Positions 6,763 to 32,164 of a stretch of DNA of 64,000 nucleotides are shown here, piece after piece. The stretch covers positions 3,077,501-3,141,500 of the forward strand of contig NC_019689.1 in NCBI RefSeq assembly GCF_000317025.1. The letters run 5' to 3'. Position numbers and translations under genes: made by a program. Within the stretch, counting starts at the first letter, position 1. Every line of letters starts with the position of its first letter. This DNA is from Pleurocapsa sp. PCC 7327. GTDB taxonomy: Bacteria > Cyanobacteriota > Cyanobacteriia > Cyanobacteriales > Microcystaceae. Under the pieces are notes generated by a model. The model had not been told where the DNA came from and made no database searches. It saw nothing but the letters and a program-made list of their open reading frames with translations.

Positions 6763-6900
6763 TCGATGAAAGAATTTTGGATTTTAGATTTTGGATTGAG
6801 GATTGTTAGTAGTTAGTAGTTAATTCTCTCCCAGTCCCCCAACTCCCCCACACTTCCCTCTCCCTCTGCGCCTGAAGCGCCTCTGGGTGAAATAAAAAAA
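6763..6900. other. Intergenic low-complexity spacer
   Basis: Between two membrane-protein genes. It contains near-repeats of GATTTTGGATT and a pyrimidine-rich run (CCAGTCCCCCAACTCCCCCA), a kind of junk spacer common in cyanobacterial genomes. I see no promoter or structured RNA. Confidence 0.4.
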
Positions 6901-10094: not shown

Positions 10095-10190
10095 CTTAAA
10101 AATTTCCTTGATGTTATTTTCTTTTTGATGTACGTTTTCATGGCGATTTCATTCTGACTTGATTTCGCCAAGCTACTTGGTACGTTTTTG

Positions 10191-17850: not shown

Positions 17851-17875
17851 ACTAAAATAGTAAATAGTTATAAAG
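17851..17875 (-). promoter_or_regulatory. Candidate ArsR operator upstream of arsR1
   Basis: On the minus strand this 25-mer begins CTTTATAACTA and ends TTTTAGT. It matches the rhodanese/exoD site at 20351-20375 at 20 of 25 positions. It lies about 26 bases before the preferred start of the first ArsR gene, where autoregulation would act. AT-rich, so binding is inference. Confidence 0.5.
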
Positions 17876-17900
17876 TTTTTAATTGCTGTCAATCTCCACT

Positions 17901-18266
17901 ATGCTCAAGACTTTTTCCTCAAAGACTTCCCCCATCGTCCTGGCTTCGGTAGCTGACTATTTCAAAGTCCTTTCCGAAGTCAGTCGGCTTCAGATTTTAA
18001 GTTGTTTGAGGTCGGGGGCAATGAATGGAAAGGAAATTACGGAAGCGACCGGTTTAGGGCAGGCTAATCTGTCAAAACATTTGAAGGCGCTGACTCAAGC
18101 TGGAATCATATCTCGCCAACCACAAGGCGTTAGCGTCTACTATGAGATTGCTGACCCAATGATTTTTGACTTGTGCGAATTGGTGTGCGATCGCATTAGT
18201 AACCAAATGCAACAACGGGCTAAAGAATTTGAACAGTTTACAGCATTTACTACCCCCTCAACATAA
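17901..18266 (+). CDS. ArsR-family transcriptional regulator 1
   Basis: A 121-residue winged-helix repressor. The recognition helix is GLGQANLSKHLKAL and the wing is SRQPQGVSVYYEI. It lacks the arsenic ELCVC motif but has Cys35 (ILSCLRSG) before the recognition region and Cys92/Cys96 (LCELVC) in the C-terminal helix, a spacing that recalls thiol-persulfide sensors of the BigR/SqrR group. I use the ATG at 17901; a TTG at 17883 in the same frame is possible. It faces the convergent flavoprotein/DsrE pair, and a candidate operator lies just upstream. Persulfide sensing is inference. Confidence 0.88.
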   Translation: MLKTFSSKTSPIVLASVADYFKVLSEVSRLQILSCLRSGAMNGKEITEATGLGQANLSKHLKALTQAGIISRQPQGVSVYYEIADPMIFDLCELVCDRISNQMQQRAKEFEQFTAFTTPST

Positions 18267-18292
18267 CTATTCAATATTTCCCTAAAAAAATC

Positions 18293-19291
18293 CTAAACCG
18301 AGACTTTGAGATTTTCTTCCCACCGACGCGGTCCTTTGTCGCGGCGAATGTCTCGCCAAATCTGAGTGGCGGCTAAAGCACCGTCGCCAGCCGCTACCAC
18401 CACCTGATTCAGCCCCACCTTTAAATCGCCAATCGCAAAAATCCGAGGGTGGGAAGTTCGACCCATCTTATCGGTGACGAGATTGCCACCCTTTAACTCC
18501 AAATCTATTCTTTGGAGATAGGTATTGTGATAGCGAGAACCCATCGAAATCAAACCCGTTTCCAACTCGACGACCGACCCATCCGTCAACTCTACGCCAG
18601 TCATTTGATGTTTTTGACCCAGAAATTTCTTGATGGGTGTCTCTATCAGGCGATAGCCATGTTCCTGTAGTTGGGAGCGAAGTCCGGCACTAACCTCAAA
18701 CAGTCCGTGAGTAAAGACAGTAATATAGGGCGTAAACCAACTCAAGTTGAAAATCATCTCTTCAATACTGGCTTCGCTACCAGCAAAAAAACCACATTGC
18801 TTGTCAGTCATTTCATAGCCATCGCAGACCATGCAGACATGTAAGTTATAACCCGCATACTGGTAGACATTCTGCATATCTTCTAAAGGCGGCAGATAGT
18901 CGATGATGCCACTGGCAGCAATCAGGTACTTAGAGCGAAAAACTCGATAAATGCTATTATTGCGACCGACTTTAACTCGCACGGCAAAAGTGTCTCCTTC
19001 ATCGACAACTTCTTCCACATAAGCGTTGAGAAAATCTCCATTGAGAGAGAGATAATGTTCTTTACCCCGCTCGAGCAGCACGCGACCGGGGGTATCTGGC
19101 GGCAACCCTAGATAATTGTGTAATTCTTGCATCCAAAAGGAACGCGCTTTGCCTTTATCGAGAATGAGACTGGAGAGGCGGAATCGCTGTAGATAAATGC
19201 CAGCAGAAAGTCCGCCCGCACCGCCACCGACAATAATGACATCGTAAACGCGATCGAGGTTTCGATCGAGATTTTTCTTTGAGAGTTTCAT
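18293..19291 (-). CDS. Thioredoxin-reductase-like FAD/NAD(P) oxidoreductase
   Basis: About 332 residues. An FAD Rossmann motif (VYDVIIVGGGAGGLSAGI) near the N-terminus, a redox-active C153-x-x-C156 (CMVCDGYE) in the place where thioredoxin reductases have CATCDG, and a C-terminal FAD motif (PRIFAIGDLKVG). The second nucleotide-binding loop is unusual (GFFAGSEASIEEM). The start is uncertain: a TTG at 19339 overlaps the DsrE stop codon, while the ATG at 19291 fits the family length. Cotranscribed with DsrE and close to rhodanese and SQR, it may reduce a persulfidated or disulfide partner. The electron acceptor is not known. Confidence 0.85.
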   Translation of the reverse strand: MKLSKKNLDRNLDRVYDVIIVGGGAGGLSAGIYLQRFRLSSLILDKGKARSFWMQELHNYLGLPPDTPGRVLLERGKEHYLSLNGDFLNAYVEEVVDEGDTFAVRVKVGRNNSIYRVFRSKYLIAASGIIDYLPPLEDMQNVYQYAGYNLHVCMVCDGYEMTDKQCGFFAGSEASIEEMIFNLSWFTPYITVFTHGLFEVSAGLRSQLQEHGYRLIETPIKKFLGQKHQMTGVELTDGSVVELETGLISMGSRYHNTYLQRIDLELKGGNLVTDKMGRTSHPRIFAIGDLKVGLNQVVVAAGDGALAATQIWRDIRRDKGPRRWEENLKVSV

Positions 19292-19335
19292 CGTTTTTTT
19301 GTCTATTTTGAGCGAGGACAACCAGGCAATTGATT

Positions 19336-19704
19336 TCAATAATCTAAAGACAAAATGCGTCCTTGGGTGAAATTAAAGAAAGCTTCTTTTTGGGCTAGTT
19401 GTACGCCCTCCATTAAATCCGAGGGTTGATGGTTGGCAGCTTTTAAGCACATAGGGCAGACGTACATCCGAACGCCTTTGTCAATTAGCTTGGGTAAGAG
19501 GGTTTGTGCTGATTCAAACTCTCTAAATTCAATCGCTTTCCCATTCTTGAGAGGAACTTCTACGCCTTTGATATCAAAGAACACTAAGACATCTTTATCC
19601 TCAGACATTTTTTCAGCTAATGCGAGTGCCATCAAGACTCGGTGAGGGTCTTCTGCGCCTCGACTAATGTGAAGAAAGACTCCATCCTTAACTTTAGTTT
19701 CCAT
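19336..19704 (-). CDS. DsrE-family sulfur-relay protein
   Basis: A 122-residue single-domain DsrE/DsrF-like protein. Two cysteines, C83 and C86 in YVCPMCLKAA, lie where family members carry a persulfide on a conserved Cys. DsrE proteins hold and pass sulfane sulfur in the cytoplasm. It is followed directly (overlap or short gap) by the thioredoxin-reductase-like gene, implying a two-gene operon in which the flavoprotein could recycle the CxxC pair. With the rhodanese, SQR and two ArsR regulators nearby, a sulfide/persulfide role is likely. Confidence 0.88.
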   Translation of the reverse strand: METKVKDGVFLHISRGAEDPHRVLMALALAEKMSEDKDVLVFFDIKGVEVPLKNGKAIEFREFESAQTLLPKLIDKGVRMYVCPMCLKAANHQPSDLMEGVQLAQKEAFFNFTQGRILSLDY

Positions 19705-19740
19705 TTAGAGAACTCCTCGTCTAATCACTTGTAGGGTGAA

Positions 19741-19833
19741 TTAAACTTCTCGAAGCTGTTGCACCATTTCAACGGTTTCGACAACGGATTTTTTCCTGGC
19801 TATTCCGGCGATCTGAGGGCTGACTAATGTCAT
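19741..19833 (-). CDS. Possible 30-residue peptide upstream of dsrE
   Basis: ATG at 19833 to TAA at 19741, read MTLVSPQIAGIARKKSVVET... QQLREV, 36 bases upstream of the dsrE start on the same strand. It is charged, not hydrophobic. It could be a leader peptide, a remnant of a lost gene, or chance. No family recognised. Confidence 0.2.
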   Translation of the reverse strand: MTLVSPQIAGIARKKSVVETVEMVQQLREV

Positions 19834-19939
19834 AAAAAACTATCCGTTTTTACTTGACTTGTTTAACTCCTACGGTTAGGTAGCGCGATCGCCAGTCACT
19901 ATTTGGCTATTCGACAGCTAAATTATTAGATGGGTGAAA

Positions 19940-20320
19940 TTACTTGCCCGTGCGAGTCTCTAGCCCCAATCGCTGCCATTCCATCATGCCGCCAGTAATA
20001 TTAAACACTTGGCTAAAACCTGCTTTGACTAGAGCGTTAGCTGCAATGGGACTGCGGTGAGAGGTTAAGCAGATGACGGCAACCGCTCGCTCTTTGGATA
20101 AATCTCGAAACCACTGGGGTAGCAGCCAACGGCGAAACAGAGGCATCGTTCCCAAGAGTAGGCGCGGTAAGCTGAGATTGAGAGCAGTGGGGGCATGACC
20201 GATGGCATATTCCCATCGGCTACGGACATCGATGAGCAGAGGCGGGTTCGGTAATTTAGTAAATTCCTTCGGGGATAGATGAGTAATGCGCGATCGCGCC
20301 GAAGCTGAAGTAGACATCAT
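19940..20320 (-). CDS. Single-domain rhodanese sulfurtransferase
   Basis: A 126-residue protein with one rhodanese domain. The catalytic loop is C84-LTSHR (VICLTSHRSP), and LLIDVRSRWEYAIGHAPTALNL is the conserved N-terminal part of the fold. The helix LLLGTMPLFRRWLLPQWF inserted before the active site is unusual and may dock it at a membrane or partner. It transfers sulfane sulfur from persulfide or thiosulfate to a thiol acceptor. It is divergent from the ExoD gene; the shared intergenic region has a near-palindromic operator candidate 31 bases upstream of this start. Confidence 0.88.
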   Translation of the reverse strand: MMSTSASARSRITHLSPKEFTKLPNPPLLIDVRSRWEYAIGHAPTALNLSLPRLLLGTMPLFRRWLLPQWFRDLSKERAVAVICLTSHRSPIAANALVKAGFSQVFNITGGMMEWQRLGLETRTGK

Positions 20321-20350
20321 AGTACTACTCTCCCTTCAGAGTCATATTAA

Positions 20351-20375
20351 TTTTATAACTAAATAGTAATTTAGT
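20351..20375 (+). promoter_or_regulatory. Candidate ArsR operator, rhodanese/exoD divergent promoter
   Basis: Contains TTTTATAACT followed by the interrupted palindrome ACTAAATAGTAATTTAGT (20358-20375): 7-bp arms ACTAAAT and ATTTAGT with a 4-base spacer. Matches sites at 17851-17875 (inverted, 20/25) and 21227-21251 (19/25). The arrangement suits an ArsR dimer. Confidence 0.55.
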
Positions 20376-20506
20376 CAACCTACAACAGGAGGCTCAAAAC
20401 TCCTTTGAGGTTTGGCTTCGGGTTTCCGATCGGTGTATCCTGGAGTTTGCTGTTAATACCGGTCATCTATCAGCACAAAAACTGTTGTGAGTAGAGTCTA
20501 ATAACA

Positions 20507-21142
20507 ATGGCTAAACTTTCTGTAGAACTACAGCGCTATTTTTTTGAAGAAGAAAGACAAAGTGAAATTAAACTGGTAGAAGTCCTTACCTTAGCAGGAG
20601 AACGCATATTTGGCTTTTTATTTGTCATTCTTTCTCTTCCTTCTGCCTTGCCGATTCCCGCACCTGGTTACTCAATTCCTTTTGGGATTTTAATGTTTCT
20701 TTTAGCCATTCAATTAATCGCAGGTGCTAAAGGGCCTTGGCTGCCTGAAAAGATGATGCACGGCTCGATGAAGTTGGAAAGCGCTCAGAAAATTGTCAAA
20801 GCAGGGATTCCTTGGCTCAAAAGAATTGAAGCCATTACTCGTCCTCGCATGACTTATGTTTGTACTACATTAACTGGTAGAGTACTAATAGGAATCGCGA
20901 TCGCGCTGATGTCCATTTCTATGATGATTCCCATTCCTGGAACCAATACATTGCCTGCAATGGGAATTTTTGTTACAGCCTTTGGTTTACAGGAAGATGA
21001 TGGCTTTATCAGTCTCGGCGGTTTAGCGATCTGCTTAATGGCAGGCGTTCTTTCCACGTCAATTATCATTGCCGTCATTTGGGGGGGGAGCAGTTTATTA
21101 GACGTAATCAAAACTTGGCTCAAATCAGTCATGAGTTACTGA
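20507..21142 (+). CDS. ExoD-family membrane protein
   Basis: A 211-residue integral membrane protein of the ExoD (exopolysaccharide synthesis) family. The segments LSLPSALPIPAPGYSIPFG and MIPIPGTNTLPAMGIFV are the repeated proline-rich family motifs. About four hydrophobic helices. The biochemical role is unsettled; in rhizobia the gene affects exopolysaccharide production and alkali tolerance. It shares a divergent promoter with the rhodanese gene, which ties it to the sulfur-related block and suggests a stress-envelope function. Confidence 0.88.
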   Translation: MAKLSVELQRYFFEEERQSEIKLVEVLTLAGERIFGFLFVILSLPSALPIPAPGYSIPFGILMFLLAIQLIAGAKGPWLPEKMMHGSMKLESAQKIVKAGIPWLKRIEAITRPRMTYVCTTLTGRVLIGIAIALMSISMMIPIPGTNTLPAMGIFVTAFGLQEDDGFISLGGLAICLMAGVLSTSIIIAVIWGGSSLLDVIKTWLKSVMSY

Positions 21143-21226
21143 CACTCTCTCAATTATCAAATTGTCTTGAATCGAGATAGTAAAGCAGTATCCCCTTGAA
21201 AGATTGACTGATTTGCTTTATTGTTA

Positions 21227-21251
21227 TTTTATAACTAATTGGTTGTTTAAG
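21227..21251 (+). promoter_or_regulatory. Candidate ArsR operator upstream of sqr
   Basis: Begins TTTTATAACTAA, identical over 12 bases to the rhodanese/exoD site, and matches it at 19 of 25 positions overall. It lies about 106 bases upstream of the sqr ATG. AT-rich, so some similarity may be chance. Confidence 0.45.
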
Positions 21252-21356
21252 ATTAAAAGAAAATAATTTTCCTAACAGCGTGGGAATAGACGGCGATCGC
21301 ATGGCAGAACCTCGCTCCTTATCCTGCGCTAGCTTTAACAAATCGGAGAAAGACCA

Positions 21357-22688
21357 ATGGCTCACATTATCGTAATCGGTGCGGGACTAGGAGGATTGCC
21401 AACAGCTTACGAACTGCGACATCTCTTACCGAAGCAGCATCGCATCACCCTGATTTCCGACAAGCCAGAATTTACCTTTATTCCCTCGCTGCCTCACGTC
21501 GCTTTTGGCTTAACATCCCTCGAAAAAATCCAACTCAATGTCGAAAAGCTGGTTAAAAATCGGGCGATCGATTGGGTATTGGGACAGGTAGCAGCCCTCA
21601 ACCCTCACGCCAAACAGATAACCGTAGGAGATAAAACAATTGATTACGATTATGCCGTTATTGCTACGGGAGCCTCCCTCAAACTCGATGCCATCCCTGG
21701 TTTGGGACCCGAAGGCGGTTATACCCACTCAGTCTGCAATCCTCATCATGCCCTGCTAGCGCGAGAAGCCTGGAAAGAATTCGAGCAAAATCCAGGGGCT
21801 TTAGTCGTGGGAGCCGTGCCTGGGGCTAGCTGTATGGGACCCGCCTACGAGTTTGCTCTCCTAGCAGATTACGTACTGCGTCAAAAAAGATTGCGCAATC
21901 GCGTTTCCATTACCTTTGTTACCCCGGAACCCTATGCGGGTCACTTGGGCATTGGAGGGATGGCAAACTCAGGGAAACTGGTGACACAATTAATGCAAGA
22001 ACGGAACGTAGAATTGATTGAAAATGCTGCCATTATTAAGATTGATGCTGAGAGAATCTGCCTAGCAGACAGTCGCCAGTTACCGTTCAAATACGCCATG
22101 CTCCTGCCACCTTTCTGCGGAGCCAAGTTCTTGCGGGACGTACCAGGATTGACTGATGCTAAAGGCTTTTTACCAGTCCTACCGACCTATCAACATCCCG
22201 ATTTTCCTTCTATTTATAGTTTGGGGGTGACCGTGGAACTTGCCCCTCCCGAACCAACTCCAATTCCGAGCGGCGTTCCGAAAACGGGTCAGATGACCGA
22301 ATCGATGGGCATGGCAGTCGCCCACAATCTTGCCAGAGAGTTAGGGGAAATTGAAGCAGCGCCCGTAACTCCTACCCTAGGAGCCATTTGCATGGCGGAC
22401 TTTGGCGATACCGGGATTCTCTTTGTTGCCAATCCCGTTTTGCCCGATCCGGTGACGGGAAAGCGGCGCAGAGCTTTTGCAGTGCGGGGCTGGTGGGTGA
22501 GTTGGATTAAGACGGCTTTTGAGAAATTTTTCTTAGCCAAGATGCGTTTAGGAATGTCTATCCCTTGGTTCGAGCGCTTGGGATTGTGGCTTTTAGGATT
22601 ATCTCTCACCGAGCCGATGTCAGCCTCAAGGGAGCAAAACTTAGAAATGAAAAAGACGGGCGGGCGGGTGCAAGGGACTCTGCCGTGA
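21357..22688 (+). CDS. sqr: Sulfide:quinone oxidoreductase
   Basis: A 443-residue flavoprotein. The FAD site is GAGLGG near residues 8-13. The three cysteines of true SQR enzymes are all present: C127 (HSVCNPHH), C159 (GASCMGPAYEF) and C345 (GAICMADFGDTG). The last 70 residues form amphipathic/hydrophobic segments (WWVSWIKTAFEKFFLAKMRL, LGLWLLGLSL) that would anchor it to the membrane. It oxidises sulfide and passes electrons to plastoquinone, releasing sulfane sulfur. The three Cys argue against NDH-2, which lacks them. The SQR subtype cannot be fixed without a tree. The ArsR2 gene follows on the same strand. Confidence 0.92.
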   Translation: MAHIIVIGAGLGGLPTAYELRHLLPKQHRITLISDKPEFTFIPSLPHVAFGLTSLEKIQLNVEKLVKNRAIDWVLGQVAALNPHAKQITVGDKTIDYDYAVIATGASLKLDAIPGLGPEGGYTHSVCNPHHALLAREAWKEFEQNPGALVVGAVPGASCMGPAYEFALLADYVLRQKRLRNRVSITFVTPEPYAGHLGIGGMANSGKLVTQLMQERNVELIENAAIIKIDAERICLADSRQLPFKYAMLLPPFCGAKFLRDVPGLTDAKGFLPVLPTYQHPDFPSIYSLGVTVELAPPEPTPIPSGVPKTGQMTESMGMAVAHNLARELGEIEAAPVTPTLGAICMADFGDTGILFVANPVLPDPVTGKRRRAFAVRGWWVSWIKTAFEKFFLAKMRLGMSIPWFERLGLWLLGLSLTEPMSASREQNLEMKKTGGRVQGTLP

Positions 22689-22726
22689 GATGGCAAAGCC
22701 TGAAAAGCACTTCGTTAGAGATACTC

Positions 22727-22748
22727 CGCCGTTGAACGGCGGAACCTC
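22727..22748. other. Stable hairpin between sqr and arsR2
   Basis: CCGCCGTTGAACGGCGG, a 7-bp GC-rich stem with a 3-base loop, in the 75-base gap between sqr and arsR2. No T-run follows, so it is not a classic terminator; it may protect the sqr mRNA end or modulate translation. Similar stems occur at transposon scars. Confidence 0.4.
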
Positions 22749-22795
22749 CTCTGACTTCGTCAATGTTGTCTAATAGCGCTCGACAGAAAAACGAG

Positions 22796-23089
22796 ATGGA
22801 AATGACGCTTAATCCCCAAGAATTTGAGAGTTTGGCAGAGCGATTTAAAATCCTCAGCGAACCGACAAGATTACAAATCCTATCGGCAATTTGCCAGGGA
22901 GAATATAACGTTAATGATATTTGCCGACGGACTGGTCTGCGCCAAGCTAATGTTTCCAAGCACTTACACCTGCTCAAAAGAGCTGGGGTCGTGGCTTGTC
23001 GTCGAGTAGGCGTATGCCGCTATTATCGCGTCATCGATCGAGACTTGATGAACTTGTGTGCTAAAGCCCGTAGAGAAAAATTCTACTAG
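22796..23089 (+). CDS. ArsR-family transcriptional regulator 2
   Basis: A winged-helix repressor of about 97 residues from the internal ATG at 22796 (the same frame extends to 22763). Recognition helix GLRQANVSKHLHLLKRAG, nearly the same as in ArsR1. Cysteines lie in SAICQGE, NDICRR, VACRR, GVCRYY and at the C-terminal NLCAK. The first and last match the positions of cysteines in ArsR1. The family includes regulators of sqr genes such as SqrR, BigR and cyanobacterial SuoR. It lies directly after sqr and 10 bases before the RND adaptor gene, so all three are probably one transcript. Confidence 0.9.
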   Translation: MEMTLNPQEFESLAERFKILSEPTRLQILSAICQGEYNVNDICRRTGLRQANVSKHLHLLKRAGVVACRRVGVCRYYRVIDRDLMNLCAKARREKFY

Positions 23090-23099
23090 GAGGAAAATA

Positions 23100-24443
23100 A
23101 TGGAAAGTTCTACAATTGATAAACCTCAGTTACCTGAGAGCTGGCTCAATATAAAAGTTATTGGTTTATTGACATCTCTCATTGTCTTATCGGGAGGGGT
23201 AGGATGGTGGTTATTATCAAACTCCACCAGTCGTCAGCCAATCCCGAAAGCGATCGCAACTTCTCCGACAATCAAGGTGCAAACAGCCGTTATTAAGCCA
23301 ATGCCCGTTCGAGGCGATCGCACTCTGACGGGAACTGTCGAGGCAGTGGAATCGGTCACTTTGACTAGCCGCGTCATGGGACAGATCGAGCGACTCCCGG
23401 TACAGGAAGGAGATTTAGTCAAAGCCGGTCAACTGATTGCTCGCATAGATGTACGAGATATTCAAGCCCAGCGCAATCAAGGCAATGCTGCTATTTCTCA
23501 AGCGCGATCGGCTGTCAGCGCGGCGCAGTCGGCTTACCTAACTGCCCAAGCGCAAAAAAATCAAGCAGAAGCTCGCGTTCGAGAAGCCCAAGCCACCCTG
23601 ACAGAAGCTCAAGCAGAATTAGCCGATGCCAAGCTGCACCAAAAGCGGATGGCGATGCTGCGAACTGAAGGAGTAGTCAGTCAATCCCAGCTAGATGAAG
23701 CTAATACCCGCGTAGCGACAATTGAAGCCAGAATTGGTCAAATTCAAGCGGCAATTAAGCAAGCGATCGCAACCGTTGACCAAGCCCAAGCACAAGTCCG
23801 ACAGGCACAGGCACAGATCGAACAATCCCAAGCGGGAGTTGCACAAGCCCAGGCAACTGTAGAACAAACCTTAGCGAACCTCGATTATGGGACTGTGACA
23901 GCTCCTTTTACTGGGGTGGTGACGCGCAAACATGCCGAAGTTGGCGCAATGGCAGGTACGGGACAAGCTTTAGTCACCTTAGAGAATATCGATCGACTTC
24001 GCTTTAGCGTTGCCGTCCCCGAATCTCTCATCGGTCGGCTCGAACACGGTCAACCGGTGCAGATCGAGTTAGATGCCCTCAATCGTTCGGCGAACGGTCG
24101 CGTCAGTCAAATTATTCCAGCTGCCGACCCCGCCTCGCGCAATTTTACGGTCAAGATTGCTTTGGCATCGGATGCCGATATCATTCCGGGGATGTTTGGT
24201 CGCTTGCAATTGACGACCAGCACTCGCCAAGCCTTGATGATTCCCAATGATGCGATCGTCAAGCGTATGGGGATTACTGGCGCGTACAAAGTGGTAGACG
24301 GCAAAGCTCAGTTTCAAACCCTAACCGCAGGGACAACTCATGGAGAACAGGTGGAAGTCTATTGGGGACTAGAAGCAGGCGATCGCGTCATTCTCAATCC
24401 TAGCCCCGCTCTCACAGATGGGGCATTGGTTAGTCTTCAGTAA
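23100..24443 (+). CDS. RND efflux periplasmic adaptor subunit
   Basis: A 447-residue membrane-fusion protein. One N-terminal helix (VIGLLTSLIVLSGGVGWWLL), a lipoyl half-motif (VMGQIERLPVQEGDLVKAGQLIARID), then a long coiled coil rich in Gln and Ala (about 140-270), a second lipoyl half (APFTGVVTRKHAEVGAMAGTGQ) and beta-barrel domains. I set the start at 23100 because AGGAGGAAAATA precedes this ATG. It would bridge an inner-membrane RND permease to an outer-membrane channel. The likely partner permease is 3 kb downstream at 27469, separated by several small genes; no TolC gene is in the window. Confidence 0.93.
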   Translation: MESSTIDKPQLPESWLNIKVIGLLTSLIVLSGGVGWWLLSNSTSRQPIPKAIATSPTIKVQTAVIKPMPVRGDRTLTGTVEAVESVTLTSRVMGQIERLPVQEGDLVKAGQLIARIDVRDIQAQRNQGNAAISQARSAVSAAQSAYLTAQAQKNQAEARVREAQATLTEAQAELADAKLHQKRMAMLRTEGVVSQSQLDEANTRVATIEARIGQIQAAIKQAIATVDQAQAQVRQAQAQIEQSQAGVAQAQATVEQTLANLDYGTVTAPFTGVVTRKHAEVGAMAGTGQALVTLENIDRLRFSVAVPESLIGRLEHGQPVQIELDALNRSANGRVSQIIPAADPASRNFTVKIALASDADIIPGMFGRLQLTTSTRQALMIPNDAIVKRMGITGAYKVVDGKAQFQTLTAGTTHGEQVEVYWGLEAGDRVILNPSPALTDGALVSLQ

Positions 24444-24475
24444 CCTTCACTTTTATTCACTATTTAGGATAGATT

Positions 24476-25078
24476 ATGTGGAAATCTTTTTATCGACTCC
24501 TAACGGCAATTACCATAACTTTGCTGCTATTTAGCTGGCATCCTACCATTGCCAATGCTCAAACCGACCCGACAGAACTAGCTAAAGCCGTTCAGGAAAT
24601 TGAAGCCCTCGATGCGATGCGTTCCGGTTTAGCCTCAACTTTGGAAGGAAAACCGGAGGCACCAACCTTGCAGACATTTAAAGAAGTTTGTCAACCCGTC
24701 GGCATGAGAGCCAAACAGCTAAGTCAAGAAAATGGCTGGCAAGTCAAGCAAATTGCTAAAAAGTATCGCAATAGCGCCCATGCCCCCGATAACTTACATT
24801 CGGTGATGGCACTAGCTAAGTTTGAACAGAACCCAGAATTAATGGGCTTTTGGGAGCGAGAAACTATTAACGGACAACAAGGAACTCGCTACTATCGTCG
24901 TATTAATGTCGAAGCTAGTTGCCTTGCCTGTCACGGTGCAAAAAATTCTCGACCCCAGTTTATTCAAGAAAAATACCCTCAAGATTTAGCTTTTGATTTT
25001 CAAGTGGGCGACTTGCGGGGGATGTATGCGGTATTTATTCCCGACGTTCGAGTGCAAAAAGCTCTCAGTAGCGAGTAG
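24476..25078 (+). CDS. Secreted haem protein, Tll0287-like (DUF3365)
   Basis: A 200-residue protein with a signal peptide (MWKSFYRLLTAITITLLLFSW..., cleavage after ANA) and one c-type haem site C149-x-x-C152-H153 (SCLACHGAK). The body is the DUF3365/Tll0287-like domain, a PAS-like fold with one haem found in periplasmic or lumenal sensors and redox proteins. It lies 30 bases after the RND adaptor and is probably cotranscribed. Haem iron binds sulfide, so a sensor or redox role in the same block is possible, but this is inference. Confidence 0.88.
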   Translation: MWKSFYRLLTAITITLLLFSWHPTIANAQTDPTELAKAVQEIEALDAMRSGLASTLEGKPEAPTLQTFKEVCQPVGMRAKQLSQENGWQVKQIAKKYRNSAHAPDNLHSVMALAKFEQNPELMGFWERETINGQQGTRYYRRINVEASCLACHGAKNSRPQFIQEKYPQDLAFDFQVGDLRGMYAVFIPDVRVQKALSSE

Positions 25079-25104
25079 CTGCCCAAACTAAGGAGGAAAG
25101 CCAA

Positions 25105-25271
25105 ATGAAACGGATTATTGTCTTAATCGCGATCGCGTCGAAATTAAAGGCTCTAGAATTACCGATGCTGGAATGGTAACCTCGATTGTCTCTCAAGTGA
25201 CCAAAGGCGATAATGTTCTGATTCTACGAGATGAAAATGGTTTGCCAATGTGGAGTCGCAGGCAAAGATAG
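25105..25271 (+). pseudogene. Small secreted-protein gene with internal deletion
   Basis: A strong AAGGAGGAAAG site leads into MKRIIVLIAIA, a signal-peptide-like start, but the frame breaks at the HIP1-like sequence GCGATCGCG. A different frame then reads VEIKGSRITDAGMVTS, followed by IVSQVTKGDNVLILRDENG and LPMWSRRQR before the stop. The two halves look like the N- and C-terminal parts of one small exported protein whose middle was lost. I do not recognise the family. It is in line with the RND/haem/DUF3122 run. Confidence 0.5.
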
Positions 25272-25280
25272 GAGATATTT

Positions 25281-25799
25281 ATGTGGTGTCGCATTCGACA
25301 AATTTTCTCGTGGTTGGTATTGCTAGGTACTTTAATTCTACTACTGTTATTGGGGCTAGGAATCTTCTCAGTTTTGCCTGCTGCGGCTGCTATTCGTCAG
25401 ATGGAAGAAGCCCCCGGACAAATATTACAGCAATCTCGACATACGTTGCGAGATGAGAAGGGAAATGCTTGGCAAGTGGTGCTATTTAAACGGGTTAAAG
25501 CCGATGGTTCGACGACCGTCAATTTGCGATTAGTTGGGTTTCCCGGTACGGTGGCATTTGCCCATCCTCAACCGTTGAAAATTACAACCAACCAGGGAGA
25601 AATATTGGTAGCTGAAGATTTGTTTGCCCAAAAAGCGCCCGCTCCTAATGTCGGTCAATACGACCTTAAAAATATATTGCCTCAATTACCAATAGCAGGA
25701 GCGGTTCATTTATCTCTCGTCATGAATGACGATCGCGCGATCGATCTGTCAATTCCTGCCGAAGTGACGCTCGAATGGCAAACTATTGCAGCCCAATAA
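25281..25799 (+). CDS. DUF3122 protein
   Basis: A 172-residue protein with an N-terminal membrane segment or signal (IFSWLVLLGTLILLLLLGLGIFSVLPAAAA), then AIRQMEEAPGQILQQSRHTLRDEKGNAWQ, characteristic of the cyanobacterial DUF3122 family. The mature part is a beta-rich periplasmic or lumenal domain. No catalytic motif is visible and the function is unknown. It follows the broken small gene by 9 bases and precedes the SCP-2 gene by 32, so it is part of the same run. Confidence 0.82.
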   Translation: MWCRIRQIFSWLVLLGTLILLLLLGLGIFSVLPAAAAIRQMEEAPGQILQQSRHTLRDEKGNAWQVVLFKRVKADGSTTVNLRLVGFPGTVAFAHPQPLKITTNQGEILVAEDLFAQKAPAPNVGQYDLKNILPQLPIAGAVHLSLVMNDDRAIDLSIPAEVTLEWQTIAAQ

Positions 25800-25831
25800 C
25801 GAAATGAAAACATTAACCAAGGATAGAAACA

Positions 25832-26227
25832 ATGGCAGAATTATTTTCCCCCGAATGGATGCAAGCATACAAAGACCAATGGAATGCCGAACCGGAATTA
25901 GCAGATGCGCTAGCTAAAATTAATTTTAATTCCGCGATCGCCTACGGCTTCAAAAGAGAAGATAAACCCAAAGGAATTCTCATCGTCAAGGAAGGTCGAG
26001 CAGTAGAAGCCGGTATCTATAAAGGACAAGAACTGAACTGGGATTTGCGAGCCGATCTCAAAGATTGGGAAAAGTGGCTCAAGAATGGTTTGAATATGAT
26101 GAGTTTAAGTGCGGCTTATATGCAGAGCAAACTCAAGTTTGCCGTAGGCGATTATGGTGCGATGATTAAAGATCCCCGCATGGTTGGACCATTTCTCAAA
26201 TCCTTCGCCGTTATGGGACGAGTTTAA
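25832..26227 (+). CDS. SCP-2 sterol-carrier-like protein
   Basis: A 131-residue soluble protein. The pattern of WNAEPELADALAKINF, DLRADLKDWEKWLKNG and QSKLKFAVGDYGAMIKD fits the SCP-2 lipid-binding fold, where the last segment is the typical KxKxxGD-like strand. No signal peptide. Small SCP-2 proteins bind hydrophobic ligands; the ligand here is unknown. It ends 33 bases before the start of a broken nitronate monooxygenase gene. Confidence 0.8.
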   Translation: MAELFSPEWMQAYKDQWNAEPELADALAKINFNSAIAYGFKREDKPKGILIVKEGRAVEAGIYKGQELNWDLRADLKDWEKWLKNGLNMMSLSAAYMQSKLKFAVGDYGAMIKDPRMVGPFLKSFAVMGRV

Positions 26228-26259
26228 CGAATTTTTCAAAACCTAAAATTTGAGAGAGA

Positions 26260-26582
26260 TGACAAAAACAATAACAACCGATTGGAAGTACCAGTGGCAA
26301 ATCCCAATACAGCCGGAGGTCATCTGGGTGCTAAGTACGAAGAATTAGGCAATCCAGCTTTCAACGCCGAGCAAGTCATTCCCGCCTTAGTCAACTATCT
26401 GCGATCGCAAGTGGGAGTAGATATTCCCCAGTGATTGCGGCAGGCGGAATTTGGAATCGCACCGATATCGCTCGCGTGCTAGCTTTGGGAGCAAAGGGCG
26501 TGCAAACAGGAACTCGTTTTATTACCGGCTTGCAAGTGTCGCGATACCGGCATTGGATCGCGCCGGACGCGCACAAAGGATG
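26260..26582 (+). pseudogene. Nitronate monooxygenase remnant
   Basis: Two frames read VPVANPNTAGGHLGAKYEEL with FNAEQVIPALVNYLRSQVGVDIP, then, after a frameshift near 26432, VIAAGGIWNRTDIARVLALG and AKGVQTGTRFITG. These are the C-terminal half of a 2-nitropropane dioxygenase/nitronate monooxygenase, including the His of GGHLGAK and the FMN-phosphate loop GGIW. The N-terminal half is missing and the tail is cut by the start of the next gene. Nonfunctional. Confidence 0.75.
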
Positions 26583-27191
26583 ATGTCTGTTGCCCAATTA
26601 ATAGAAGATGAAGAATTTAACCAATTATCAGCTCTAATGAACTCCCCGGATTGGCAAACTCGCGATCGCTTTCTCGAACTTCGCTCTCCTTGGCTTACTC
26701 TGATTGGCGAACATCTTCAAGAGCCGCAACAGGAACAAATTCTAAAATACTGGCGAGTTGAAAAGGCTGATTCAGTTATTATTTTACCCATTCAAAGCCA
26801 CCAGCTAATTTTGCCCCATCCAACTTACCGCCCCGGATTGGGCAAAGCAACCTTGGACTTTCCTGGCGGAAGACTTCCTGAAGGAGAACAGCCGCTCGCG
26901 GTAGTGCCAACTATTCTCCAACGCGAACTAGGGGTTACAGCAGAAGATATCGCCCAGATAACCCCTTTGAATAGTCAGGGATGGGCAGTCAATAGTTCCT
27001 TTTCCAATCAGAAGCTCTACGGATTCGTCACAGACTTGCATTCTACAGCTAAGATTCCTGCAAACTTTATTGGAGGCACTTATCCTATTACCGACTCAGG
27101 TATTGAGTCCTTACTCAAATCTCTAACTTGTCTGCAATGTCGAGCCTTGTTGTTGGAGTGGTGGCTAACTAGATCGCGATCGTTGAGTTAA
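26580..27191 (+). CDS. NUDIX-like hydrolase
   Basis: A 203-residue protein starting MMSVAQLIEDEEFNQLSALM; upstream in-frame codons belong to the nitronate monooxygenase debris, so I place the start at 26580. The NUDIX box is degenerate: GGRLPEGEQPLAVVPTILQR followed by ELGV keeps the Gly, first Glu and REL-like Arg-Glu but lacks the usual EExG. Catalysis is therefore uncertain; it may be a binding protein. The N-terminal part (SPWLTLIGEHLQ) is like ADP-ribose pyrophosphatase-type proteins. Confidence 0.7.
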   Translation: MMSVAQLIEDEEFNQLSALMNSPDWQTRDRFLELRSPWLTLIGEHLQEPQQEQILKYWRVEKADSVIILPIQSHQLILPHPTYRPGLGKATLDFPGGRLPEGEQPLAVVPTILQRELGVTAEDIAQITPLNSQGWAVNSSFSNQKLYGFVTDLHSTAKIPANFIGGTYPITDSGIESLLKSLTCLQCRALLLEWWLTRSRSLS

Positions 27192-27393: not shown

Positions 27394-27420
27394 GCTAAAT
27401 AACTAAAAAGTTTTATAATA
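27394..27420. promoter_or_regulatory. AT-rich inverted repeat before RND permease gene
   Basis: Contains AACTAAAAAGTT with flanking TAAAT and TTTATAA. It loosely resembles the ACTA...TAGT operator candidates upstream, with shared TATAA, ACT and ATTTAG elements if small gaps are allowed. Weak evidence on its own. Confidence 0.25.
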
Positions 27421-27468: not shown

Positions 27469-30400
27469 ATGTCTGACGATTCCTGCGGAACGCCGAGCGA
27501 TCGCGCCGAAACCCAAAAGCCGAACCTGGTAGGACAAATTACTGCTTATTTTATTAATTCCCAGGTGACAATCCTTCTCATTGCTGCTCTTATCGTGTTT
27601 GGCATAGCAGCAGTCATCTTTACCCCCAAAGAAGAAAATCCGCAAATTGTCGTTCCGGCGGCTGACGTTTACTTGCAGTATCCCGGCGCACCCGCAGAAG
27701 TCGTCGAGAAAACGGTTACGACTCCAGTAGAAGCCAAAATTCGGGAAATAACGGGAGTCGAGCATATTTATTCGGTTTCCCAGAATTCTGGGGCAAAGAT
27801 TACGGTGCAGTTTTTTGTCGGGGAAAACTGGGAAGATTCCCTATTCAAGCTACAAAACCAGTTATATAATTGGCAAGATATTTTTCCGCCTGGGGTAAAT
27901 TACCTCGTCAAACCGACAATTATTGACGACGTGCCGATCGTTACCCTGACGATCGCGGGAGAGGGTTATTCAGACAATCAACTGCGCCGCATTGGAGAGA
28001 GATTATTAGAAGACTTGCGCAGCATTCCCAATACCGGGAACTTGACAATTACAGGGGGACAACCCCGCGTCATGCGGGTGGACTTGGATCCCGATAAATT
28101 AGCCAGTTACAAACTATCTCCTGCCGCGATCGCCCAACGCCTGCAAGGAGAAAATATCCAACTCCCCGCGGGGGATGTTTCGGCGGGAGAAAACCGACTC
28201 TTTATTGAAGGGGGCAGTTTATTTTCCTCAGCCGCCGATCTGGGGGATGTTATTGTCGGCTTTAGCGGCGGCGCAGCCAACAAATCTCCCATTTATCTGC
28301 AGGATGTAGCAACCATCAAAGATGATTTCGGCGATCGCGTTACCTATTCGCGCATTCACTACCGCAAAGATTGGAACATCGCCAATCCCTATCCCAACTC
28401 CAAAGAACATCCCCAGGACGAATTCGTCAGCCAAAACGCAGTTACCATCGGCATTGCCAAGAAAAAAGGCACTAACGCCGTCACCGTTGCCAAGCAGATC
28501 TTTAAGCGCCTCGACGAACTAAAATCTCAACTACCGCCAGGGGTAGAAATTGGGGTTAGTCGCAACGATGGACTGACGGCATCTAGGGCAGTCGGGGATC
28601 TTTACACCAGTTTATTGCAAGCGATCGCGATCGTGGTAGCCCTACTGGTAATTTTCTTGGGTTGGCGCGAAGCTTCCATTGTTGCCTTTGTCATTCCCCT
28701 AACCCTGGCAGGAACGCTGTTAGTGGGTTGGATTGCCGGTCAAACCATTAACCGAATTACCCTTTTTGCGCTGATTCTGGCATTGGGTACGTTGGTAGAT
28801 GACGCGATCTCGGCGACAGAAAATATTCACCGTCGCTTTGCACTCAAAGCCAACATGAGTTTTTCCGAAAAAACCTCAGAAGCGATCGCCGCCGTAGCCG
28901 AACTAGGCGTTCCCATCATTCTCTCCACCGTCACCGTCATCCTCGCCTTCCTGCCCATGCGCTTCGTCACTGGCATGATGGGACCCTACATGGCGCCAAT
29001 TCCTTTTAACGTGCCCGTCGCCATGCTGATTAGTACCACCTTGGCATTGACGGTGACTCCCTTTCTGGCATTGCGGTTAATTAAAATTAAACCGAAACGG
29101 GAAACGGGAAATGGGTCAGAATCTGCCGCTAACGAGTCTGAGAAAGTACAGCAAACCCGCATCTACAAGCTATATCGCCGTATCTTAGAACCCTTACTCG
29201 ACTCTACCCAACGTCGCCGCTTCGTGTTGTTTTTCATTACGGGTTTGTTACTGGCAAGTTTTATCCTACCTTTGACTCAGGCGATCAAATTCCGAATGTT
29301 GCCCAAGGCAAATAAAGATACTTTTTTAGTCCAACTCGATGCGCCACTGGGAAAAGAGTTAGTAGAGACCGATCGCATCGTTCGAGAAATGGAAGCCGCT
29401 TTAACCCAAGATCCGGAAGTGGTACAATTCGAAAGCTATGTAGGTACGGGCGCGCCAATAGACTTTAATGGCTTGCTGCGGGGCAGTAGCGATCGCACGG
29501 GCGAACATTTTGCCGATATTCGGGTTCATTTAACCAATAAAGAGGCTCGCAAAGAAGATTCTGAAGCAATCGTTTTCCGCTTGCGTTCCCAGTTAAGCGC
29601 AATTGCGACAGCGAATAATGCCATTGTCAAGTTAGTCGAAGATCCGCCCGGTCCTCCAGTGCGATCGACCATGCTAGCGGAAATTTACGGTGCCGATTAC
29701 GATCGCCTGTGCCAGTTAGCAAAAACAGTCCGCCAAGTCTTCAGTGACACTAAGGAGGTAGTCGATATTGACGATTCGGTCAAAAATCGGATCCCCCAAA
29801 TGAAGTTGGTAGTAGATCGCAACAAAATCAACCAAGCCGGTTTAACCGCGCAAGAGATTGCCCAAACGCTAAATATGGCGATCGCTGGGGCAAATGTTTC
29901 TACCCTGCAAGTACCCGGAGAACTCTCCCCCGTAGCCATTCAAGTACGCTTTACCGAAACGAACAGACAGAATCTTGACGACCTTACTCGCATTCAAATT
30001 CCCACCCCAACTGGAAATCTCGTTCCCCTGACGGAACTGGTCGAGTTTAAACCTACTATCGTAGACGAACCGATTTTCCACAAAGATCAACGACCCGTTA
30101 CCTATGTGATGGGCGAAATGGGCAATCGTTCCTCCGTCTACGCCGTCATCGACCAAATGATTTATTTCCTGCGCCATCCCCTGCCTCAAGGCTACAACAT
30201 CAAATGGGACGGGGAATGGAAGCTAACCCTCGATGTTTTCCGGGATTTGGGATTGGCAATGTTGGTAGCGGTAATGTTGATTTATTTCATTCTAGTGGGT
30301 CAATTCCGCAGTTTTAAAGTGCCTCTGATTATCATGGGCGCGATTCCTCTCGCCTTAATCGGCATTTTGGTCGGTTTCTCCCTTAATGGGGTTTACTTTA

Positions 30401-30786
30401 GCGCTACTGCCATGATTGGCGTAATTGCCCTCGCAGGAATTGTCGTCCGCAACGCGATCGTGCTGTTGGAGTTTATCGGCGATCGCCTGCGCGAAGGAGT
30501 CGATTTAAAAACTGCTATCCTCGAAGCGGGAGCAGTACGATTTCGTCCGATTTTGCTGACTAGCGTAACGACCATGTTGGGGACTTTAAGCATTCTCAAC
30601 GATCCCGTTTGGTCGGGACTAGCTTGGACGTTATTATGCGGAATGCTGACCTCTTCTGCTCTGACCTTAATCGTCATTCCCTTAATGTATTATGGCGAAA
30701 AGCGATCGCATACTGGATCGGAAAATATCTCTCTTTCTCTAAGCGAGCAACAGATACAGTCGGTTAACTCAAGTCATCCAGTTTAA
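27469..30786 (+). CDS. RND efflux transporter permease
   Basis: A 1105-residue inner-membrane pump. Features include the N-terminal helix (VTILLIAALIVFGIAAVIF), the two large periplasmic loops and the TM4 proton-relay pair in GTLVDDAISATENIHRRF, as in HAE-type drug exporters; the heavy-metal (HME) signature is absent. AGIVVRNAIVLLEFI marks TM10. It probably works with the adaptor at 23100. The intervening 3 kb contains two broken genes, suggesting the original adaptor-permease linkage was opened by insertion and decay. The substrate is unknown. Confidence 0.93.
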   Translation: MSDDSCGTPSDRAETQKPNLVGQITAYFINSQVTILLIAALIVFGIAAVIFTPKEENPQIVVPAADVYLQYPGAPAEVVEKTVTTPVEAKIREITGVEHIYSVSQNSGAKITVQFFVGENWEDSLFKLQNQLYNWQDIFPPGVNYLVKPTIIDDVPIVTLTIAGEGYSDNQLRRIGERLLEDLRSIPNTGNLTITGGQPRVMRVDLDPDKLASYKLSPAAIAQRLQGENIQLPAGDVSAGENRLFIEGGSLFSSAADLGDVIVGFSGGAANKSPIYLQDVATIKDDFGDRVTYSRIHYRKDWNIANPYPNSKEHPQDEFVSQNAVTIGIAKKKGTNAVTVAKQIFKRLDELKSQLPPGVEIGVSRNDGLTASRAVGDLYTSLLQAIAIVVALLVIFLGWREASIVAFVIPLTLAGTLLVGWIAGQTINRITLFALILALGTLVDDAISATENIHRRFALKANMSFSEKTSEAIAAVAELGVPIILSTVTVILAFLPMRFVTGMMGPYMAPIPFNVPVAMLISTTLALTVTPFLALRLIKIKPKRETGNGSESAANESEKVQQTRIYKLYRRILEPLLDSTQRRRFVLFFITGLLLASFILPLTQAIKFRMLPKANKDTFLVQLDAPLGKELVETDRIVREMEAALTQDPEVVQFESYVGTGAPIDFNGLLRGSSDRTGEHFADIRVHLTNKEARKEDSEAIVFRLRSQLSAIATANNAIVKLVEDPPGPPVRSTMLAEIYGADYDRLCQLAKTVRQVFSDTKEVVDIDDSVKNRIPQMKLVVDRNKINQAGLTAQEIAQTLNMAIAGANVSTLQVPGELSPVAIQVRFTETNRQNLDDLTRIQIPTPTGNLVPLTELVEFKPTIVDEPIFHKDQRPVTYVMGEMGNRSSVYAVIDQMIYFLRHPLPQGYNIKWDGEWKLTLDVFRDLGLAMLVAVMLIYFILVGQFRSFKVPLIIMGAIPLALIGILVGFSLNGVYFSATAMIGVIALAGIVVRNAIVLLEFIGDRLREGVDLKTAILEAGAVRFRPILLTSVTTMLGTLSILNDPVWSGLAWTLLCGMLTSSALTLIVIPLMYYGEKRSHTGSENISLSLSEQQIQSVNSSHPV

Positions 30787-30872: not shown

Positions 30873-31598
30873 ATGTCAGATGACATGGAAGTTAACGAAC
30901 TGTTGAGACAATATGCAGCCGGAGAAAGAAATTTTCAAAAGCTTGATTTTCGGGAGGGAGAACTGATTAAAGCGAACCTCAAAGGAGCAGATTTCTCTAG
31001 GAGCGATCTACGCCAAGCGAGACTGGGTAGAACTAATTTCATGCAAGCTATCTTTAGAGAAGCCGATCTCAGCGAGGCAATTCTTTGGGGAAGCGACTTG
31101 AGCCAAGCCGATTTATCCCGCGCCGTGTTGCGGGATGCAGATTTGAGCGGTGCCAAGCTGATGCAAACAAATCTGACTGAAGCTTATTTGAGTAAAGCCT
31201 GCCTATGCGGTGCCAATCTTCATGGCGCTAAACTACAGGGTGCCATTCTGTTTGAGGTGGACTTTCGTCCCACTTCCGACCAACGGACAGACATAGGTAA
31301 AGCTGACTTGAGCGGTGCAGACTTAAACTATGCCAACCTCAGTGCAGCACTTTTATATCGAGTTAATCTGGATAAGGCTAAACTCTGTCGCGCGAATCTG
31401 AGTGTCAGCCTAGAGCGCGATCCGTTTGTTACCGATCTCACTGAAGCTAGCTTGCGAGGAGCCGATCTCAGTTATGCTAACCTGAGTGGAGCCGTTTTGC
31501 TGAAAGCCGATCTCCAAGAGGCCGATCTAACAGGAACAATCTTAACCGATGCTGACTTGCGAGGTGCAATCATGCCTGATGGAACTGTGCATGATTAA
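30873..31598 (+). CDS. Pentapeptide-repeat protein (cytoplasmic type)
   Basis: A 241-residue protein made almost wholly of A(D/N)LxX pentapeptides (KANLKGADFSRSDLRQARLG...), which fold as a right-handed quadrilateral beta helix. The N-terminus LLRQYAAGERNFQKLDF is a cap common in cyanobacterial members. A break at about residues 130-145 (DFRPTSDQRTDIGK) interrupts the helix. No signal peptide. The function is unknown; some family members bind DNA gyrase. Confidence 0.9.
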   Translation: MSDDMEVNELLRQYAAGERNFQKLDFREGELIKANLKGADFSRSDLRQARLGRTNFMQAIFREADLSEAILWGSDLSQADLSRAVLRDADLSGAKLMQTNLTEAYLSKACLCGANLHGAKLQGAILFEVDFRPTSDQRTDIGKADLSGADLNYANLSAALLYRVNLDKAKLCRANLSVSLERDPFVTDLTEASLRGADLSYANLSGAVLLKADLQEADLTGTILTDADLRGAIMPDGTVHD

Positions 31599-31661: not shown

Positions 31662-32098
31662 TTAACCCTCAACAACGGGAGCAACTAAAGCTACTGGTTG
31701 CGCTGGAGCCGAAGCTAAATCGAGGGGGAAATTGTGAGCATTGTGTTCGTGCATCACCTCGATGCCCAGATTGGCTCGGTTGAGGATATCTGCCCAAGTG
31801 GGAATCGGTCGTCCTTGGCTGTCCAGAATAGAATCGTTGAAATTAAACCCATTGAGGTTAAATGCCATCGTACTAATTCCCATCGCCGCCGACCAAATTC
31901 CTACCACGGGCCAAGCGGCTAAGAAAAAGTGCAGCGAGCGCGAGTTATTAAAGCTAGCATACTGAAAGATCGGCCGTCCAAAATAACCGTGTGCTGCGAC
32001 AAGGTTATAGGTTTCTGCTTCCTGACCGAACTTGTAGCCAGCGTTAGCCGATTTGGTTTCCGTCGTCTCTCGGATCGAGTTAGAAGTCACCAAAGAGC
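31662..32098 (-). pseudogene. psbA: psbA 3-prime fragment (D1-prime-like), cut by TnpB element
   Basis: Encodes about the last 145 residues of photosystem II protein D1 starting at SLVTSN; the first roughly 215 residues, with Mn ligands D170 and E189, are absent. The C-terminal Mn ligands H332, E333, D342 and A344 are kept. Counting back from Ala344, it has Ser285 and Ala286 (GIWSAAMG) where the intact copy at 46617 has Phe and Thr. Ala286 is one of three substitutions (G80A, F158L, T286A) reported to mark the low-oxygen D1-prime form. Arg334 is replaced by His (HEHNAHN). The homology stops abruptly at 32098 at the end of the TnpB element. Confidence 0.9.
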
Positions 32099-32164
32099 AT
32101 AACTTTATATAACCATAAAGTTATCTAGTTTTGACATAATCCCCGCAATTGAATTGCGGGGATT
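32099..32164 (-). repeat. Right-end hairpins of the TnpB element
   Basis: Two palindromes: ATAACTTTAT/ATAAAGTTAT (32099-32124) and CCCCGCAAT/ATTGCGGGG (32141-32161). Subterminal hairpins next to the tnpB stop are characteristic of IS200/IS605-type ends. psbA homology begins directly beyond. Confidence 0.6.

Follow-up and report, generated by a model that had tools for sequence, protein, structure and literature searches.

SqrR, BigR, and YgaV are sulfane-sulfur repressors of the ArsR family and control sqr, the gene for sulfide:quinone oxidoreductase (SQR), or persulfide genes. For cyanobacteria, Nagy et al. in 2014 reportedly described an sqr operon with an ArsR regulator (SuoR) on plasmid pSYSM of Synechocystis sp. 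PCC 6803. Here, we describe an island around sqr in 64,000 nucleotides of the Pleurocapsa sp. PCC 7327 genome (G000; positions 3,077,501 to 3,141,500 of the single 4,986,817-bp contig; this whole stretch is called the window). We propose, with a probability of about 0.7, that a cyanobacterial regulon controlled by ArsR1/SuoR switches on a "sulfide mode" and that the island is its local part. Earlier papers already link sqr to arsR, psbA, and petC2. In the parts of their paper available to us, Grim and Dick in 2016 reported sqr near group 2/3 psbA in 15 genomes, counted arsR in the vicinity of 27 sqr genes, and suggested that regulation or transcription of sqr, psbA, and arsR is linked (PMC5061849); those parts contain no operator, RND cassette, or wider regulon. 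The accessible part of another paper reports petC2 beside sqr (PMC11304991).

In the island, as in the pSYSM operon, sqr precedes genes for an ArsR of the ArsR2 clade, a DUF3365 (Tll0287) protein, and a DUF3122 protein, and the same operator lies before sqr. In contrast, pSYSM has chrA and a DUF302 gene in divergent orientation and no adaptor, RND pump, SCP2, rhodanese, or ArsR1 within 11 kb. The island repressors share their family with SqrR, BigR, and YgaV, but they do not reach the 155-bit cut-off of the NCBIfam BigR equivalog (47.8 for ArsR2 and 32.0 for ArsR1). The island operator, ATATAACTA-N2-TAGTTATAT, also differs from the SqrR site, given as ATTC-N8-GAAT in the available part of one source (PMC9774250), and from the RexT site, given as ATTCG-N15-CGAAT in another (PMC13421787). 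Tll0287 of Thermosynechococcus (5b82) is a homologous heme protein; the difference is that here it lies inside an sqr-adaptor-RND neighborhood. In a term search of the text of a 2026 review of cyanobacterial redox regulation, the words sulfide, polysulfide, and SqrR did not appear (PMC13421787). In open-licence PMC full texts, we found no description of the operator, of the RND cassette, or of a regulator linking sqr to photosystem genes in cyanobacteria. What we describe appears to belong to a widespread circuit, in which an ArsR sulfur regulon uses a different operator and has photosystem targets.

The initial annotation had listed two ArsR proteins, an SQR, a DsrE, a rhodanese, a thioredoxin-reductase-like (TrxR-like) protein, a heme protein, and an adaptor, and we found all of these genes in the window as open reading frames (ORFs). 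Conservation of a gene set was not sufficient evidence, since the neighborhoods vary, and we therefore looked for shared promoters. The promoters of arsR1, rhodanese/exoD, and sqr have a stretch in common, and from these three sites we built the pattern TTTATAACTAWWTNSTWRTTTA, whose core is the palindrome given above. This pattern has five matches in the window where 0.06 would be expected; the match at 2125 is weak and lies outside the island. We then derived a symmetrized position weight matrix (PWM) from 22 sites in sqr promoters of other genomes. With a threshold score of 13, it finds five sites in the 14.8-kb island and zero in the remaining 49 kb of the window (Table 1). Without the matrix, at least 14 of the 18 operator bases occur within 400 bp upstream of sqr in 32 of 44 cyanobacterial loci, many of which had also supplied the consensus, read by eye (omitted from the count were L008 and L009, not cyanobacterial; L010, L001, and L007, copies; and L047, truncated). 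Among 400 shuffled versions of the palindrome with the same composition, none reached this number (mean, 1.2 loci; maximum, 25). Because the consensus came from many of the same sqr loci, other promoters and new records provide the cleanest test. At sqr genes outside the matrix set, we found sites scoring 24.4 in Synechocystis 6803, 19.9 in Pseudanabaena ABRG5-3, 18.0 in P. galeata, and 21.4 in Kovacikia. The 6803 site is the sole one scoring at least 8 in 11 kb, and in ABRG5-3 and P. galeata the site precedes DUF2892-sqr. The common operator and the recurrence of homologous neighborhoods together rule against a chance grouping of the genes.

In the whole 5-Mb PCC 7327 genome, the pattern has two exact matches, both in the island, and five matches with one mismatch, which include those before arsR1, a third arsR (L048), and a second rhodanese gene beside cydB. 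This second rhodanese, just downstream of cydB behind the operator (L050:2945-4518, the same as G000:C1:3967151-3968724), is 98% identical to the first, which suggests a recent duplication. The one-mismatch sites at 1752315, inside a transporter gene, and at 265435, overlapping a 131-aa ORF, were taken as chance, and weak sites before acsF (G000:4050061) and a persulfide dioxygenase (PDO)-like operon (L144; score, 14.2) were not used as evidence.

The SQR query matched 35 of 386 cyanobacterial genomes at an E value of 1e-60, PCC 7327 included. A stricter pattern with at most one mismatch gave 50 sites in these 35 genomes, 14 in stretches already at hand and 36 newly fetched. We found that 28 of the 50 precede sulfur or alternative-photosynthesis genes (18 of 40 when sqr is left out), where the classes counted (sqr, arsR1-type, PDO-like, TauE, CoA-disulfide reductase [CoADR]-like, Tll0287, PetC-type, psbA, and rhodanese) were set after the genes had been seen, three counted PetC-type genes lie 318 to 472 bp from the site, and L058/L059 and L079/L082/L084 come from related genomes and are near-replicates. 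Of the 14 exact sites, 12 precede regulon-class genes, eight of them at sqr. Among the fetched sites, none of the 14 scoring below 19 stands before a regulon-like gene; the 22 at 19 or above comprise 14 before regulon-like genes, 2 before HdrC-like genes, 1 before a DUF2214 gene, and 5 that lie inside ORFs or have no ORF of 80 aa nearby (for L085, the scan reported a different place from the pattern site). In 76 genomes without type I sqr, picked from genomes in SQR/Tll0287 listings and not at random, exact sites occur in 2 genomes, and two of the three sites precede PDO-like genes. Elsewhere, the operator also stands before micro-oxic psbA and before genes for PetC-type Rieske, PDO-like, TauE, and CoADR-like proteins. 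The island therefore forms one arm of a wider regulon, and the view of a self-contained sulfide-response island was too narrow.

We use "PDO-like" only as a sequence-based label: the L138 protein is similar to the MBL-fold structures 4ysb and ETHE1 4chl, the other PDO-like proteins are 49 to 91% identical among themselves, and those of L079 and L138 fall below the GloB and Blh cut-offs. Likewise, the CoADR-like protein of L072 falls below the CoADR cut-off, and that of L070 is 93% identical to it. The PetC-type protein of L061 passes the NCBIfam PetC cut-off, and the others are 66 to 78% identical to it. All nine operator-linked full-length D1 proteins examined carry A80/L158/A286, presumably the signature of micro-oxic D1 (D1'); one of them (L142) lacks the Mn ligands. 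Among ligand-complete D1 proteins, the residues occur in 8 of 8 operator-linked ones (five genera; psbA of L037 and L143 left out) versus 0 of 6 near-full-length D1-like proteins elsewhere in the PCC 7327 genome. In L015, L020, and L021, psbA and a divergent gene for a nitronate-monooxygenase/FabK-like flavoprotein have an operator region in common. HdrC-like iron-sulfur proteins lie behind the operator in three genomes (L036:10622, L064:1602-2387, and L088:2590). Two matches that rank among the best for the operator, scoring 26.5 and 25.0, are found at a DUF2214 membrane protein gene (L078:975-1430, G019) and between genes with no ORF nearby (L067, G058), respectively.

Photosynthesis targets of this kind could also belong to a low-oxygen circuit, run by ChlR or another sensor, in which micro-oxia and not sulfide induces sqr, petC2, and psbA. 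We consider this main rival unlikely. The available part of a review names 6803 psbA1 as a possible ChlR target induced by low oxygen (PMC4500134), that of a second paper reports low-oxygen induction of petC2 beside sqr (PMC11304991), and operator-like sites precede acsF in L027 and, weakly, in PCC 7327. However, ChlR is a MarR activator, and the same part of the review gives its targets in Synechococcus 7002 as acsFII, ho2, hemN, and desF only (PMC4500134). The operator, in contrast, precedes ArsR, PDO-like, TauE, and CoADR-like genes, and the few exact sites in genomes without type I sqr stand mostly before PDO-like genes.

The candidate binder of the operator is ArsR1. With a threshold score of 10, an upstream site occurs in 28 of the 42 ArsR1 homologues that are at least 51% identical (23 of 34 if eight rows fetched for their pattern match are set aside), in 0 of 19 more distant homologues, and in 0 of 13 arsR2 genes, which follow sqr. 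Duplicate or short entries were left out (L001, L113, and L115 for ArsR1; L033 for distant ArsR1; L010, L001, L113, and L047 for arsR2). In a midpoint-rooted tree of few alignment columns, arsR1 and arsR2 are split at 100/99, and the operator-less homologues form a 19-row group at 100/100. The 6803 ArsR beside sqr, which we take to be SuoR, falls in the arsR2 clade (16 rows, 100/99). In G058, G083, and G370, only operator-less ArsR types were found, and sqr has no site. ArsR1 scores higher on HTH_5 than on MarR. SqrR and BigR have a Cys pair in helices alpha2 and alpha5; candidate residues here are C44 and C99 of ArsR2, invariant in 4 rows, and C98 of ArsR1, invariant in 6 rows. Searches of solved structures with the ArsR proteins did not single out SqrR or BigR. 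We infer that ArsR1 or ArsR2 binds the operator.

Several observations weigh against an ArsR1/SuoR regulon. The remaining 22 of the 50 pattern sites do not precede regulon-class genes, and site frequency is not enriched: we counted 50 forward sites against 82 for the reversed control in the 35 sqr genomes, 11 against 14 in PCC 7327 with two mismatches, and 3 exact sites against 9 in the 76 genomes without type I sqr. Since raw counts are not above reversed controls, we rely on site placement. No site was found at 14 of the 42 ArsR1-type genes. G213 and G215 have the sqr operator together with only operator-less ArsR types, and G282 has no ArsR1 match; therefore, ArsR2 or another protein may bind the operator too. 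The alpha2 Cys of ArsR1 is not invariant and is missing from the L048 protein, and an argument from the recognition helix (QAN-SKHL) was dropped because the helix is identical in operator-less homologues. Finally, Synechococcus 7002 has no site before sqr and has one instead before a DUF2892-petC pair. According to the available part of PMC12466478, sqr expression falls with polysulfide in this strain, which fits the absence of an operator there. In favor of the regulon, the same source reports that polysulfide increases expression of psbA, petC, pdo, rhod, and tauE, without stating whether this petC is the operator-linked one. The counts and the poor conservation of dsrE and exoD would also suit a loose neighborhood under no common control, in which the shared sequences are AT-rich promoter elements. 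This is highly improbable, given that no shuffled palindrome reached the real count and that the sites precede functionally related genes at unlinked places.

For the ArsR1/SuoR regulon, we propose the following mechanism. In the resting state, the palindrome would be occupied by a dimer of ArsR proteins (ArsR1, probably together with the SuoR-type ArsR2), which would repress four units of predicted extent: arsR1; the rhodanese gene with dsrE and the flavoprotein gene downstream; sqr-arsR2-adaptor-Tll0287-DUF3122-SCP2; and the RND pump. Sulfide entering the cell would give rise to sulfane sulfur, the signal suggested by the targets and the family, which would modify Cys of helices alpha2 and alpha5 and release the repressor, by analogy with SqrR and BigR. 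Judging from family or position, SQR would oxidize sulfide and feed the plastoquinone pool; persulfides would be handled by rhodanese, DsrE, and the Slr0600-type protein; and Tll0287 may be an exported redox heme protein. We guess from its position that the RND pump exports a sulfur-stress product. In other genomes, the operator would add a PDO-like enzyme, TauE, a CoADR-like protein, a PetC-type Rieske protein, and a micro-oxic D1 gene, which in PCC 7327 appears as a broken gene of the micro-oxic type. Its placement before the Rieske and D1 genes suggests that the circuit re-tools the photosynthetic electron chain besides detoxifying. That a single ArsR1/SuoR sulfane-sulfur switch, acting through one operator, installs SQR, micro-oxic D1, PetC2-type Rieske, Tll0287, persulfide detoxification, and a dedicated RND exporter seems to us slightly better than an even bet. 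If true, it would be a cyanobacterial counterpart of SqrR with a different operator, extending into the photosystems. One switch before both sulfide-oxidizing genes and spare photosynthesis parts makes a change between two modes of photosynthesis testable, and it provides a context for Tll0287, DUF3122, and the Slr0600-type flavoprotein, all three of which are little understood.

The expectation that the gene set would recur in other genomes was borne out for its core. We counted neighbors at 34 loci of other genomes (L014 to L047, some cut by contig ends) and found sqr with arsR2 in 11, Tll0287 in 14, DUF3122 in 14, the Slr0600-type flavoprotein (80 to 83% identical) in 7, and psbA in 8. An arsR1-like gene is near sqr in 10 (the L033 copy is of the operator-less type). 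The trio of SCP2, adaptor, and RND pump is near sqr in 5 and within these 34 is never split, and a pentapeptide-repeat copy of at least 60% identity (60 to 64%) adjoins sqr in 5. Identity of the RND partners is 71 to 73% in L019, L022, and L031 and 39% in L024 and L037, which indicates two pump subfamilies in one slot. In Baaleninema PCC 7105 and Geitlerinema BBD, the order is sqr-arsR2-adaptor-SCP2, and the stretch contains no pump.

Several families have variants of the cassette sqr-arsR2-(Tll0287)-DUF3122-SCP2-rhodanese-adaptor-RND, and two plasmids carry such variants as well. The ABRG5-3 plasmid is annotated as arsR-DUF2892-sqr-arsR-DUF3122-SCP2-rhodanese-adaptor-RND, and 6803 pSYSM carries sqr-arsR-DUF3365-DUF3122. 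The Kovacikia minuta plasmid reads sqr-arsR2-DUF3122-SCP2-rhodanese-adaptor-RND, followed by a Nudix-like gene, psbA, and arsR1; its adaptor and pump are 36 to 39% identical to those of the window and its rhodanese about 33%. This full set (L143) occupies approximately 13 kb of a 1.2-Mb plasmid, which points to mobility as a unit. Stand-alone Tll0287, an open frame of up to 263 aa by our own cut-off, occurs in 23 of 35 sqr genomes versus 18 of 351 others, a comparison not corrected for kinship; 15 of 44 such copies lie within 10 kb of sqr. Thus, the joint island was upheld insofar as ArsR control, SQR, adaptor, pump, and heme protein are kept together in variants, and DsrE and ExoD fall outside the conserved set. 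DsrE, seen outside the window among the sqr loci compared only as two fragments in L001, is an accessory. ExoD, seen among these loci only in the window, in its own-genome copy, and in L001, is probably a passenger. In L001 (Hydrococcus rivularis NIES-593), whose SQR is 96% identical to that of the window, the gap between the flavoprotein gene and exoD (near 8590-8880) gave two short dsrE matches and no rhodanese match.

Table 1. Genes and operator sites of the island (window coordinates)
Feature	Position	Strand	Evidence or remark
Operator 1, before arsR1	17853-17874	-	1 mismatch to TTTATAACTAWWTNSTWRTTTA; PWM 13.9
arsR1, ArsR/SmtB repressor	17883-18266	+	PF01022; alternative ATG 17901
TrxR-like flavoprotein, Slr0600/Gll2934 type	18293-19339	-	CMVC at 169-172; 5jri, E 4e-131
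DsrE-like protein	19336-19704	-	PF02635; CPMC at 83-86
Single-domain rhodanese	19940-20320	-	PF00581; Cys84
Operator 2, between rhodanese (-) and exoD (+)	20352-20373	+	0 mismatches; PWM 21.1
ExoD-family membrane protein	20507-21142	+	PF06055
Operator 3, sqr promoter	21228-21249	+	0 mismatches; PWM 16.0
sqr, sulfide:quinone oxidoreductase	21357-22688	+	3hyv, E 9e-95
arsR2	22763-23089	+	Clade of ArsR beside sqr in Synechocystis 6803; synteny with pSYSM
RND periplasmic adaptor (MFP)	ORF 23058-24443; likely start ATG 23100	+	TIGR01730, 214 bits (cut-off 94.9)
Tll0287/DUF3365 secreted c-heme protein	24476-25078	+	CLACH (CXXCH); PF11845; 5b82 Tll0287, E 2e-60
DUF3122 protein	25281-25799	+	PF11320
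SCP2-like protein	25832-26227	+	66% identical to annotated SCP-2 gene in the same place in ABRG5-3
Nudix-like protein	26451-27191	+	Weak NudE-type match; homologues in L001, L027, and Kovacikia plasmid
Operator 4, before RND pump	27397-27416	-	PWM 19.3; 23.8 in the same place in L001
RND pump (AcrB family)	27469-30786	+	PF00873
Pentapeptide-repeat protein	30873-31598	+	PF00805
psbA 3' fragment, broken gene	31662-32093	-	PF00124; A286 (Ala286) only
Operator-like site 5, before psbA fragment	32107-32126	-	PWM 16.2

C127, C159, and C345 of the window SQR align with Cys of 3hyv (three conserved Cys in an FAD disulfide-reductase fold), and its kinship to published cyanobacterial type I SQR suggests the type I label. 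The TrxR-like flavoprotein with CMVC is present as first described, with its closest relatives now corrected to Slr0600 and Gll2934. A Pfam search gave no match for the SCP2-like protein, and membership of the Nudix-like protein in the island is uncertain. The RND pump, the presumed partner of the adaptor, lies outside the initially drawn boundaries (17901-27191). The island encodes both adaptor and pump of an RND exporter. Because this pump, the pentapeptide-repeat protein, and the broken psbA are in the same neighborhood, the right end of the island moves from 27,191 to about 32,126.

An exporter beside ArsR genes could also serve an arsenite or metal response, in which ArsR senses As(III) or metals, the pump exports metal, and SQR is incidental. 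The 6803 sqr and arsR genes are expressed with arsenite according to the available part of PMC5061849 and adjoin chrA, and the adaptor matches the CzcB and CusB models below cut-off. Nevertheless, the genes annotated in the window cluster include no ars genes, multidrug models match the pump better than CusA/CzcA models do (every score is under its cut-off), and the operator targets are sulfur and photosynthesis genes. We regard this explanation as improbable and placed it, like the ChlR one, below an ArsR sulfide regulon.

The psbA fragment adjoins IS605 OrfB-type transposase ORFs. A second psbA fragment lies about 37 kb from it (G000:3071434-3071928), and in H. rivularis NIES-593 the fragment is matched over 42 aa only. 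Elsewhere in the window, positions 5215-11765 hold four successive ORFs of 515 to 538 aa; the first is mannosyltransferase-like (PMT_2), and the last two look by eye like paralogues.

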